NCBI GenBank assembly: GCA_020845455.1
Contig: JADLFO010000080.1
Span: 1 to 64,000 of the forward strand
Reading direction: 5' to 3'
From: Caldilineaceae bacterium
Lineage (GTDB): Bacteria; Chloroflexota; Anaerolineae; Caldilineales; Caldilineaceae
Length of the DNA: 64,000 nucleotides
The notes under the pieces are model-generated. The model ran no database searches. It saw only the letters and a list, made by a program, of their open reading frames with translations, and was not told the origin of the DNA. Made by a program: the position numbers and the translations under genes. Below, in pieces: positions 7,840 through 12,114 of the stretch (within the stretch, counting starts at the first letter, position 1; every line of letters begins with the position of its first letter).

Positions 7840-8616
7840 GTGTCCGAACGCCTGAGCCTGTACATTGAACGGGACAGCCCGCTGCACCGGCTGAACCCGC
7901 TGACCAAATTGACGCTGGCGCTTTGCCTGGTCCTGGTCGATTTCTTGGGGCCTGGCTACTGGCTGCCCACGCTGCTCTATCTCTTGGCGCTGATCCCGTT
8001 GAGCGTGTGGGGTCGGGTGATCGGGCCATTTCTGCGCACGACCGTGCGGCTGCTGCTGCCGCTGGTCGCCTTTCTCTTTGTCATGCAAAGCCTCTTCTAC
8101 CCCGGCGGGCACACCGTGATCTTTTCGTTTTGGATCTTCAGCGTCAAACTGGAAGGGGTGCAGTTTGCCTATCTCACCGCCACGCGCATCATTACGATGG
8201 TGGGGTCGTTTTTGCTGCTGCTCTTCAGCACCCATCCCGGCGCGCTGATGGCCGACCTCAACCGCCGCGGGGTGTCGCCTTCGCTGACCTATGTGATCGT
8301 CAGCACGCTGCAGATCATCCCGGAGATGCGCGCGAAGGCCAATACCATCATCGACGCCCAGCGCGCCCGCGGCCTGGAGACAGGTGGGTCGCCGCTCAAC
8401 CGAACGCGAGCGCTGCTGCCGCTGGTGGCGCCGTTGGTCTTTGGCTCGCTGGTCGACGTCGAAGAGCGGGCGATCGCGCTTGAGGCGCGCGCCTTTAAAG
8501 CCAAGCGCGTCAAAACCAGCCTGATCGAGATCCCCGACAGCGCCGAGCAGCATATGGCACGGCTGGCGCTGGCGGCGCTCACTCTCATCATAATCGGGCT
8601 TGGGCTATGGCTTTGA
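7840..8616 (+). CDS. ecfT: ECF transporter transmembrane T component
   Basis: The 258-residue protein is the EcfT/CbiQ-type coupling subunit. Its N-terminal region has the family pattern RDSPLHRLNPLTKL. Several membrane segments follow, then the ATPase-contacting helices with Ala-Arg-Gly-like signatures: MRAKANTIIDAQRARGLE and ERAIALEARAF. It starts with GTG 12 bases after the S gene and overlaps the first ATPase gene by 10 bases, so translation is probably coupled. Confidence 0.9.
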   Translation: MSERLSLYIERDSPLHRLNPLTKLTLALCLVLVDFLGPGYWLPTLLYLLALIPLSVWGRVIGPFLRTTVRLLLPLVAFLFVMQSLFYPGGHTVIFSFWIFSVKLEGVQFAYLTATRIITMVGSFLLLLFSTHPGALMADLNRRGVSPSLTYVIVSTLQIIPEMRAKANTIIDAQRARGLETGGSPLNRTRALLPLVAPLVFGSLVDVEERAIALEARAFKAKRVKTSLIEIPDSAEQHMARLALAALTLIIIGLGLWL

Positions 8617-9491
8617 TCGAACTGCGCGACGTCACCTATAGTTACCCCCACACGGCCGCGCCTGCGCTGCAAGAGGTAAACCTGCAGATCGAGGAGGGCG
8701 AGTTTGTCGCCATCGTGGGAGCCAACGGTGCAGGCAAATCTACGCTTGGCTACGCTATAACCGGTTTCGTGCCCCATTTTTTCCAGGGTGATCTGCAGGG
8801 CGAGGTGCGCGTCGCCGGGCTGGGCACGCGCAGCCACGGGCTGGATGAGTTGATGCTGGTGGCGGGGCTGGTCTTTCAGAACCCGTCTAACCAGATCTCC
8901 GGGGCCAAGTTCACCGTCTTTGAGGAGATCGCCTTCGGGCTGGAAAACCTGGGCGTGCCGCGCGACGAGATGCGCCGCCGCGTGACCGATGTGATGGAAC
9001 TGACAGGGATCGGCGGCTTGGCCGAGCGCTCGCCCTATGGGCTTTCGGGCGGGCAGCAGCAGCGTGTGGCGCTGGCGTCAATCCTCGTCATGTCGCCAAA
9101 GGTGCTGGTGCTGGACGAGCCGACTTCGCAGTTGGACCCGATCGGCAGCCGTGAGGTCTTTGCCGCCATCCGCAGCCTAAGCCGCCAGGGCATGACGGTG
9201 GTCATGGCCGAGCATAAGCTGGAATGGGTGGCGACCTTTGCCGATCGTGTGCTGCTCTTAGACGCGGGCCGCATTGTGCTTGACGGGCCGCCGGATGAAG
9301 TGCTGGTCAGCCCCGAACTGGCCGCACATGCCGTGGGGCAGACGGCCTACACTGTGGCGGCGCGGCAGAGCGTGGGCCGCGGGCTGTGGCCCAACGGCAA
9401 GCCGCTGCCCGTCACCCTCGATCAGGCGGCCTCCGGTTTTGCTGCCGTGCTCAACGGCGGCCCCGGACAGGCGGAAGCGCAGATAGATTGA
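8607..9491 (+). CDS. ecfA: ECF transporter ATPase, first A subunit
   Basis: A 294-residue ABC ATPase with Walker A GANGAGKST, Q-loop VFQNPSNQ, complete signature LSGGQQQRVALA, Walker B VLVLDEPTSQLD and switch histidine in MAEHKLEW. It powers the ECF importer together with the second A subunit. About 60 C-terminal residues extend beyond the core fold. All canonical catalytic motifs are intact, in contrast to its partner. Confidence 0.92.
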   Translation: MALIELRDVTYSYPHTAAPALQEVNLQIEEGEFVAIVGANGAGKSTLGYAITGFVPHFFQGDLQGEVRVAGLGTRSHGLDELMLVAGLVFQNPSNQISGAKFTVFEEIAFGLENLGVPRDEMRRRVTDVMELTGIGGLAERSPYGLSGGQQQRVALASILVMSPKVLVLDEPTSQLDPIGSREVFAAIRSLSRQGMTVVMAEHKLEWVATFADRVLLLDAGRIVLDGPPDEVLVSPELAAHAVGQTAYTVAARQSVGRGLWPNGKPLPVTLDQAASGFAAVLNGGPGQAEAQID

Positions 9492-9496
9492 GCCGT

Positions 9497-10339
9497 ATGC
9501 AGATTGATATCACAGACCTGCACTTCACCTATCCGACCGGCGTGGAGGCGCTGCGCGGCGTCTCGCTGCACATTGATCCGGGCGAACAGGTGGCGATCAT
9601 CGGCCAGAACGGGTCGGGCAAAACCACGCTGGTCAAACATCTCAATGGGCTGCTCCAGCCCACGCGCGGCACGGTGCGCGTGGGCGATTGGCTGACCGGC
9701 GAGCAATCGGTGGCACAGATGGCCGCGCGCGTCGGCTATGTTTTTCAGAACCCCGACGACCAGCTTTTCAAGACGCGCGTCGAAGACGAAGTGCGCGTTG
9801 GGCCGCTCAATCTCAAGCTCCCGCCCGACCAGGTCGCGGCTCAGACTGAACATGCCCTGCACCTGTTGGGGCTGCTGGAGCGGCGCGACCTGCACCCCTA
9901 TGATCTGACGCCGGCCTGGCGAAAACGCGTGGCGATCGCGGCGGTGCTCGCCATGAACACGCCGATCGTGGTGCTGGACGAGCCGACCACCGGCCAAGAC
10001 TATGCCACGGCGCAGGAACTAGGCCAGGTGCTGGATGCGCTGCGCGGCGAAGCCAAGACCGTGATCGCCATCAGCCATGATATCGACTTTGTGGCGACCC
10101 ATTTCAGCCGCATTGTCGTCATGGGACAGGGCCAAGTGCTGGTCGACGGCGCACCCGAGAGGGTCTTTGCCCAGGCCGACCTGCTCGCCGGCGCCTATGT
10201 AGAGCCGCCGCAGATGACACGGCTGGCCCGCCGCCTGGGGATGGACACAATTGTCTATTCGGTGGAGGGTTTTGTAGACCAACTGGCGGCGCAGTCTGCG
10301 GCGGAGCAGGCCGGCCCCGGCGCGGCGCCCCGGCAGTGA
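9497..10339 (+). CDS. ecfA': ECF transporter ATPase, second A subunit with degenerate signature
   Basis: A 280-residue ABC ATPase with Walker A GQNGSGKTT, Q-loop VFQNPDDQ, Walker B IVVLDEPTTGQD and switch histidine in AISHDIDF. The signature loop, normally LSGGQ, reads LTPAW at residues 137-141, followed by the usual RKRVAIA. The heterodimer therefore probably has one normal and one altered ATP site, as is known for asymmetric ABC pairs. The start at 9497 follows the upstream stop by 5 bases; longer in-frame extensions read into the previous gene and lack homology. Confidence 0.9.
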   Translation: MQIDITDLHFTYPTGVEALRGVSLHIDPGEQVAIIGQNGSGKTTLVKHLNGLLQPTRGTVRVGDWLTGEQSVAQMAARVGYVFQNPDDQLFKTRVEDEVRVGPLNLKLPPDQVAAQTEHALHLLGLLERRDLHPYDLTPAWRKRVAIAAVLAMNTPIVVLDEPTTGQDYATAQELGQVLDALRGEAKTVIAISHDIDFVATHFSRIVVMGQGQVLVDGAPERVFAQADLLAGAYVEPPQMTRLARRLGMDTIVYSVEGFVDQLAAQSAAEQAGPGAAPRQ

Positions 10340-11292
10340 TGAAGATGGCAAGCAAACAGCAGCTTCTCGATACCCTGCGCGACCCGGCGCAGACCGCCGA
10401 GGCCCGCGCCGCCGCTGCCGTTGACCTGCTCGTCCCGCGCTCTGGGCAGGAAGCGGTGCGCGCCGCGCTCCACTTTCTGGTCAACCACCCCACGCCGGCG
10501 GCGCGGCCTGCGCTGCGCGGCCTCTACAGCCATTATGCCGAGAACGGCGTGGGCCGCGACCCCGGAACCTATCTGCGCAGCCAGATCGTCCGCGCCCTGC
10601 GTGCGGTGGCGCTGCCCGACGATGTAGACATCTTCAACCAGGCCGTGGCAACCTATGAATTTCCGCCGCCCGCCTTTAAAGAGGAGGCGGCGCTGTTGCG
10701 CGGTGGCGCGCTGGTGGCGCTGGCCGAATGGGATGAAACGTTGGCGCGCTATCATGCCACCCGTCTGCTCGCCGACCCGCTGACCGACCCGATGTCGGGC
10801 CAACCGGCGCTGGTCGCCGTCGACGTGCTGGCGACCTTTGACGAAGCGCTGCCCCTCTTTTTCTATGCCATGCAGGCGCAGGATCATCTGCTGCCGGAGA
10901 TCGCCGGGGAATGTCTGCGCCGCTTGACCTCGCTGCCCGCGGGGCTGCTGCCCAGTGTGCTGCACCACTACGCCGAATGCAGGCGGCCGGCGCTGCTCGT
11001 CGGCGTGATCGACCTGCTGATCCAGCGCCAGGGTGGCCCAGAGGGGCTGGAGTTTTTGGCCCGCCTGCTGCATCAGCCGCCCGACCTCGACCTCTATCGC
11101 TATCTGGTGGCCGCGCTCTTGGCCGCAGCCAAGCCGGAGCTGTACAGCCTCTTGGCGGAAAGCGCGCGCCTGGAGCAAAACCCGGCGCACGTCGCCGTGC
11201 TGCTGGAGGTGCTGGGCGAGTTGGCGGATCAGCCCGAATGGCGCGAGGTGGTCACGGCGCTGCGCGGGCGGCGCAGGCCCGCCCGCAGGTGA
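10339..11292 (+). CDS. alpha-helical repeat protein, unknown function
   Basis: The 317-residue protein is soluble and rich in Ala, Leu and Arg, with repeated amphipathic helices such as 'DPAQTAEARAAAAVDLL' and 'RPALRGLYSHYAENG', the texture of HEAT/armadillo-like solenoids. No catalytic motif is visible. Its ATG overlaps the TGA of the second ECF ATPase by one base (TGATG), so it is probably translated with the transporter. It could be a scaffold or regulator. I do not recognise a named family. Confidence 0.6.
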   Translation: MKMASKQQLLDTLRDPAQTAEARAAAAVDLLVPRSGQEAVRAALHFLVNHPTPAARPALRGLYSHYAENGVGRDPGTYLRSQIVRALRAVALPDDVDIFNQAVATYEFPPPAFKEEAALLRGGALVALAEWDETLARYHATRLLADPLTDPMSGQPALVAVDVLATFDEALPLFFYAMQAQDHLLPEIAGECLRRLTSLPAGLLPSVLHHYAECRRPALLVGVIDLLIQRQGGPEGLEFLARLLHQPPDLDLYRYLVAALLAAAKPELYSLLAESARLEQNPAHVAVLLEVLGELADQPEWREVVTALRGRRRPARR

Positions 11293-11307: not shown

Positions 11308-11724
11308 ATGATGGATATGCCCGATTCCGCCCCAGATGCCGGCCCGCCGCGGCGTTTGCTGCTGCTCTCCGCCGACTGGCAGACACGCGCCTTGACCCTG
11401 GTCTCGCTGCAAGAACTGGGCTATGCCGTGCTGGCGCTGCCCAGTCTTCACCTGGGAGTCAAGGCGATCCTGGCGGAGCGAGTCGACCCGCCGCTGGTGC
11501 TGCTTGATACCAAGGATGACCCGCGCGCCACGCCTGATCAGGTGCAGGCGCTGCGCAACCTCGTCCCCGATGCCGTAATGATCTTGGTCGCCGAAGCCTG
11601 GTATCGCGAGCGCTACGCGCCGCTGGCCGCACAGATGCAGGCGTTTTTGGTGCGCCCGATCCTGATGCACGACCTGGTGGCGACCGTGCAGCGGCTGCTG
11701 CCGCCCAGCGCAACCAGCGAATAA
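11308..11724 (+). CDS. degenerate receiver-domain protein
   Basis: This 138-residue single domain follows the response-regulator receiver pattern: RLLLLSADWQTRAL, PPLVLLDTKDD with the would-be phosphoacceptor Asp, VMILVAEAW and AFLVRPIL. The first acidic pair is missing (SADW) and the conserved Lys of the KP motif is Arg, so phosphorylation in the normal way is doubtful. No DNA-binding or enzymatic output is attached. It follows the helical repeat gene by 15 bases and is last in this transcription unit. Confidence 0.6.
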   Translation: MMDMPDSAPDAGPPRRLLLLSADWQTRALTLVSLQELGYAVLALPSLHLGVKAILAERVDPPLVLLDTKDDPRATPDQVQALRNLVPDAVMILVAEAWYRERYAPLAAQMQAFLVRPILMHDLVATVQRLLPPSATSE

Positions 11725-11796: not shown

Positions 11797-11825
11797 TTGC
11801 TTCTCTTGACGACCTGTGCTATAGT
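11797..11825 (+). promoter_or_regulatory. promoter of the 6S-like RNA
   Basis: TTGCTT (11797-11802) and TATAGT (11820-11825) are exactly 17 bases apart. A start at G11832 would fall 7 bases after the -10 box and coincides with the first base of the RNA's closing stem. Confidence 0.7.
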
Positions 11826-11831
11826 ATAGAT

Positions 11832-12015
11832 GACTCTGCGGTTTCCGTGATTGGATAGACATACGGGGCGAGCCAACAGTTTCAATTCGGGAGCTCGATC
11901 ACGCGGCGTGGAAGTGGTAGCCTCGGCTTCGGCTGAGATAAGACAGAAGCGCCCAATCGGCACCCACCTGCGTTTGCAGGTTCGCAACCCACTGTCCACA
12001 CGATCTCGCGGAGTC
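11832..12015 (+). ncRNA. ssrS: candidate 6S RNA
   Basis: The RNA is 184 bases, the usual 6S length, and has no ORF. Its 5' end GACTCTGCG pairs with the 3' end CGCGGAGTC (12007-12015) with one G-U. The interior gives GACA/TGTC, GTG/CAC and GGG/CCC pairings separated by loops. An apical hairpin CTCGGC-TTCG-GCTGAG closes the far end, and ACCTGC-GTTT-GCAGGT forms the small stem expected on the 3' side of the central bubble. A good promoter precedes it and an intrinsic terminator follows. 6S RNA mimics an open promoter and sequesters the housekeeping RNA polymerase holoenzyme in stationary phase. The identification rests on architecture, not on a covariance-model score. Confidence 0.65.
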
Positions 12016-12020
12016 GTTTT

Positions 12021-12049
12021 CCGTCCGGTGTCTCCGGGCGGTCTTTTTT
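12021..12049 (+). terminator. terminator of the 6S-like RNA
   Basis: The 8-base stem CCGTCCGG/CCGGGCGG (one G-U) with loop TGTCT is followed by TCTTTTTT. Confidence 0.8.
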
Positions 12050-12085: not shown

Positions 12086-12114
12086 TTGACGGACGGCGGA
12101 GACTATGCTAGACT
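12086..12114 (+). promoter_or_regulatory. promoter of the MBL-fold gene
   Basis: TTGACG (12086-12091) and TAGACT (12109-12114) are 17 bases apart, with a TG one base upstream of the -10 (extended -10). Confidence 0.6.

Follow-up and report, generated by a model that had tools for sequence, protein, structure and literature searches.

6S RNA is a well-known small RNA of many bacteria, which imitates an open promoter and restrains RNA polymerase. Its distribution has reportedly been surveyed by Barrick 2005 and Wehner 2014. The pRNA of E. coli 6S RNA begins with A. Known 6S RNAs share pRNA hallmarks, namely GG at positions 4/5 or 5/6 and an A before the start (PMC8414754). For 6S-1 RNA of B. 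subtilis, a GTP-initiated pRNA, 5'-GUUCGGUC, has been described (PMC12005410), and its gene, bsrA, is flanked by aspS and yrvM (PMC11077062). For Chloroflexota, a literature search, mostly without subscription papers, found no experimental work on 6S RNA. Here, a stretch of 64,000 nt from a Caldilineaceae bacterium (Chloroflexota), referred to as the window, was analyzed, and positions 11832-12015 almost certainly constitute a monocistronic 6S RNA (SsrS) gene. This gene is new as a locus and ordinary as a kind, and nothing that was seen suggests a new mechanism. All elements of the gene described below lie on the + strand.

An earlier note on this DNA had proposed a 6S RNA and had named a search with the Rfam covariance model RF00013 as a check. 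Searching the whole window yielded a match at 11830-12018, which covered model positions 1-187 of 187 and scored 52.4 bits (E = 1.4e-7 for the whole window). The curated gathering score is 46.4 bits, and thus the margin was only 6 bits. No other Rfam family exceeded its cut-off in the window, and the window copy was the only 6S match in the whole genome of 5.7 Mb, whereas B. subtilis has a second 6S RNA, 6S-2. With the same model, 6S RNA was matched in 50 of the 61 relatives searched, and a search with shallow filters matched it in 67 of 301 Chloroflexota genomes. The closest named relatives of the source genome are Caldilineaceae, the top one being 97% identical at the protein level in the neighbouring gene. 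The proposed identity was thus borne out by a full-length match above the gathering score, and covariation, synteny and a conserved promoter concurred with it. A protein-coding reading of the locus was also considered and was rejected, because the copies in the family range from 177 to 191 nt with length differences not divisible by three, and because the changes respect base pairing.

The RNA is predicted to start at 11832, and it comprises 184 nt including both arms of the closing stem, which is the length that had been proposed. It folds better than shuffled sequences (z -2.5). A rod with a closing stem, a central bubble and an apical stem was obtained from an alignment of 27 Caldilineaceae copies, for which the Rfam structure was not used. 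The architecture of RF00013, i.e. a closing stem, a large central bubble and an apical stem, was therefore recovered with support from covariation. In this alignment, 15 of the 48 pairs retained pairing through changes on both sides. The fraction of paired cells was 96.2%, compared to 91.2% in shuffles, and 92 cells were changed on both sides, compared to 30.7 in shuffles, none of 500 shuffles being as high. When the partners were slid by one column, the paired cells fell from 96% to about 40%. Because related sequences can beat shuffles without any structure, the shuffle count carries less weight than the result with slid partners and the independent match to Rfam. The 5' arm of the closing stem (11832-11841) is supported by covariation, the 3' arm (12006-12015) by the fold and by covariation. 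As had been noticed earlier, the start base is also the first base of this stem, with GACTCTGCG at 11832-11840 pairing with CGCGGAGTC at 12007-12015. In the closing-stem helix, 5 of 11 pairs were changed on both sides, and 96.6% of the cells were paired. The UUCG-capped apical hairpin of the earlier note was likewise found in the fold (CTCGGC-TTCG-GCTGAG, 11922-11937); in the alignment, the loop was not conserved among the Caldilineaceae relatives.

A 6S RNA gene is expected to form a separate transcription unit of roughly 160-200 nt; in the window, a promoter and a terminator that would delimit such a unit are present by sequence, and both are conserved in relatives. The promoter TTGCTT-17-TATAGT of the earlier note was located at 11797-11802 (-35 box) and 11820-11825 (-10 box), separated by a spacer of 17 nt. 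In addition to these elements, the -10 box is extended by a TGC at 11817-11819, resulting in an extended -10 element at 11817-11825. The arrangement TTG---, 16-18 nt, TGN-TAT--T is found directly upstream of the stem in 28 of 28 Caldilineaceae loci. A generic sigma-70 scan did not list the window promoter, which has 8 of 12 hexamer matches versus a threshold of 9. The combination of a TTG/TA---T promoter with a 9-bp stem that begins 4-9 nt further on and closes after 150-220 nt was found only once more in the 64 kb. The intrinsic terminator that had been placed after the stem was picked up by a terminator scan at 12021-12049, with a stem at 12021-12041 followed by TCTTTTTT to 12049. A loose terminator count was uninformative, as 38% of shuffles pass it, and the stricter scan and inspection of the loci were relied on instead. 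This inspection revealed a GC-rich stem and a T-run after the 6S RNA in most Caldilineaceae members.

The terminator also bears on the question of whether the RNA might be the 5' leader, or another cis-regulatory element, of the downstream gene for a metallo-beta-lactamase-fold protein. This gene begins 175 nt downstream, and clustering of the flanking ORFs placed it downstream of the 6S RNA in 29 loci, as would be expected of a leader. However, the strong terminator and U-run lie between the two, and the downstream gene is provided with a promoter-like site of its own (12086-12114). Moreover, in eight Caldilineaceae loci with a 6S RNA (L030, L067, L071-L076) the gene is absent from the flanks examined, and in G010 and G033, the two of these genomes in which its location was looked up, it is encoded on a different contig. 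A role as a leader is thus hardly conceivable, and the locus is best read as a free-standing 6S RNA gene.

In the 6S RNA, the template for the pRNA is predicted at 11870-11878 (GAGCCAACA), with initiation opposite C11877, which adjoins A11878; this placement is based on homology, using the alignment to the 6S model and the conservation of CCAAC. The template in the window, GAGCCAAC|A, is nearly invariant, and its core CCAAC was seen in every one of the 28 Caldilineaceae members as well as in 46 of 51 copies from other Chloroflexota. The pRNA predicted from the window template, 5'-GUUGGCUCGCCCC, would be initiated with GTP and carry GG at positions 4/5, and an A precedes its start site; the window sequence thus has the features of known 6S templates. 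When the 14 nt of the template at 11864-11877 were blocked in silico, the adjoining helix broke, and the pair probabilities in the core of a CCUGC/GCAGG hairpin increased from 0.2-0.4 to 0.99. This hairpin lies in the 3' part of the central bubble (11964-11982), and it is predicted to form once the pRNA covers the template. Its formation opposite the bubble upon pRNA pairing would resemble the known rearrangement for 6S release. In seven genomes of one genus (G010, G021, G025, G031, G033, G035 and G036; alignment A2), a different hairpin, ACGAACC-UC-GGUUCGU, takes the place of the one on the 3' side of the bubble. It shares bases with the 3' arm of the bubble helix, and the capacity for hairpin formation is preserved there with different bases.

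When growth slows, the RNA would, by analogy to known 6S RNAs, bind the RNA polymerase holoenzyme with the housekeeping sigma factor by mimicking an open promoter. When nutrients return, the polymerase would copy the short pRNA, beginning opposite C11877. The pRNA would then open the helix GGGCGAGCC/GGUUCG-ACCC, the 3' hairpin could form, and the polymerase would be released. On the same basis, we infer polymerase binding, pRNA synthesis and expression for the Caldilineaceae 6S RNA. A rod like that of 6S RNA might also belong to a structured RNA with another role, e.g. a binder of core polymerase. Ms1 is an RNA of this type, as it is related in structure to 6S RNA, yet has the core enzyme as its partner (PMC9130861). 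For the present RNA, such a role is very improbable, because the locus matches the 6S model over its full length and no other Rfam family above the cut-off, the conserved template bears the hallmarks of templating 6S RNAs, and the synteny with aspS is common to Bacillus 6S-1.

Compared to E. coli ssrS, the full-length covariance match, the rod with a central bubble and the GG at pRNA positions 4/5 (for E. coli, PMC8414754) are shared, whereas the Caldilineaceae sequence is divergent and its predicted pRNA begins with G. With B. subtilis 6S-1, the Caldilineaceae 6S RNA shares the start of the pRNA with GTP (5'-GUUGGCUC is predicted), the 3' hairpin opposite the bubble and, in many relatives, the upstream aspS gene. 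The differences are that GG is at positions 4/5 instead of 5/6, and that the downstream neighbour is the metallo-beta-lactamase-fold gene instead of yrvM.

Not all copies in the family are recognized by Rfam. In four genomes of one genus, a divergent 6S RNA was located directly upstream of the metallo-beta-lactamase-fold gene (L165, 1203-1380; L166, 1203-1380; L167, 2473-2650, - strand; L168, 2480-2657, - strand), where the default Rfam search had found none. These RNAs scored 56-58 bits with a family model that was built without them, versus 28-30 bits with the Rfam model. The latter values are below the cut-off of 46.4 bits, and therefore standard annotation would miss these copies. Thus, the earlier remark that pipelines often miss 6S RNA does not apply to the window copy, which passes the standard model, but it does apply to these sister genomes. 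In genome G014, the Rfam search remained blank because a gap in the assembly, a stretch of N (L159, about 1641-1741, - strand), hides the end of aspS together with the 5' part of the 6S gene. Four incomplete genomes of the family (69-89%) yielded no 6S match, and the neighbouring gene is absent from them too. Taking the gap, the divergent copies and the incomplete genomes without the neighbouring gene together, no true loss of 6S RNA is therefore shown in Caldilineaceae. These results document a conserved 6S RNA across the family, with a predicted start, pRNA and terminator, and they underscore that apparent absences of 6S RNA in Chloroflexota need careful reading. L161 and L162, from a different family of the class to which Caldilineaceae belong, are likely 6S RNAs, with Rfam scores of 23-25 bits and, for L161, 56 bits with the family model.

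The clustering of flanking ORFs placed aspS upstream of the 6S RNA, on the same strand, in 38 loci; its identity was checked on one locus by the Pfam domains tRNA-synt_2 and GAD. In many relatives, aspS and the metallo-beta-lactamase-fold gene flank the 6S RNA gene on its two sides. In the window, the downstream metallo-beta-lactamase-fold neighbour is kept, and aspS is found on another contig of the same genome. The neighbourhood with the metallo-beta-lactamase-fold and RNase HI genes was retained in the lineage of the window after the departure of aspS. A functional link in Caldilineaceae between the 6S RNA and these neighbouring hydrolase and RNase HI genes is nevertheless very unlikely. 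Upstream of the 6S RNA gene, the window encodes a protein of 318 residues without a family match (10336-11292), which recurs upstream of the 6S RNA in L018, L061 and L070, and a short receiver-like protein without a Pfam match (11308-11724). Further upstream, at 7840-10339, are genes for an ECF-type transporter, i.e. one for a CbiQ-family protein and, after it, two for ABC ATPases.
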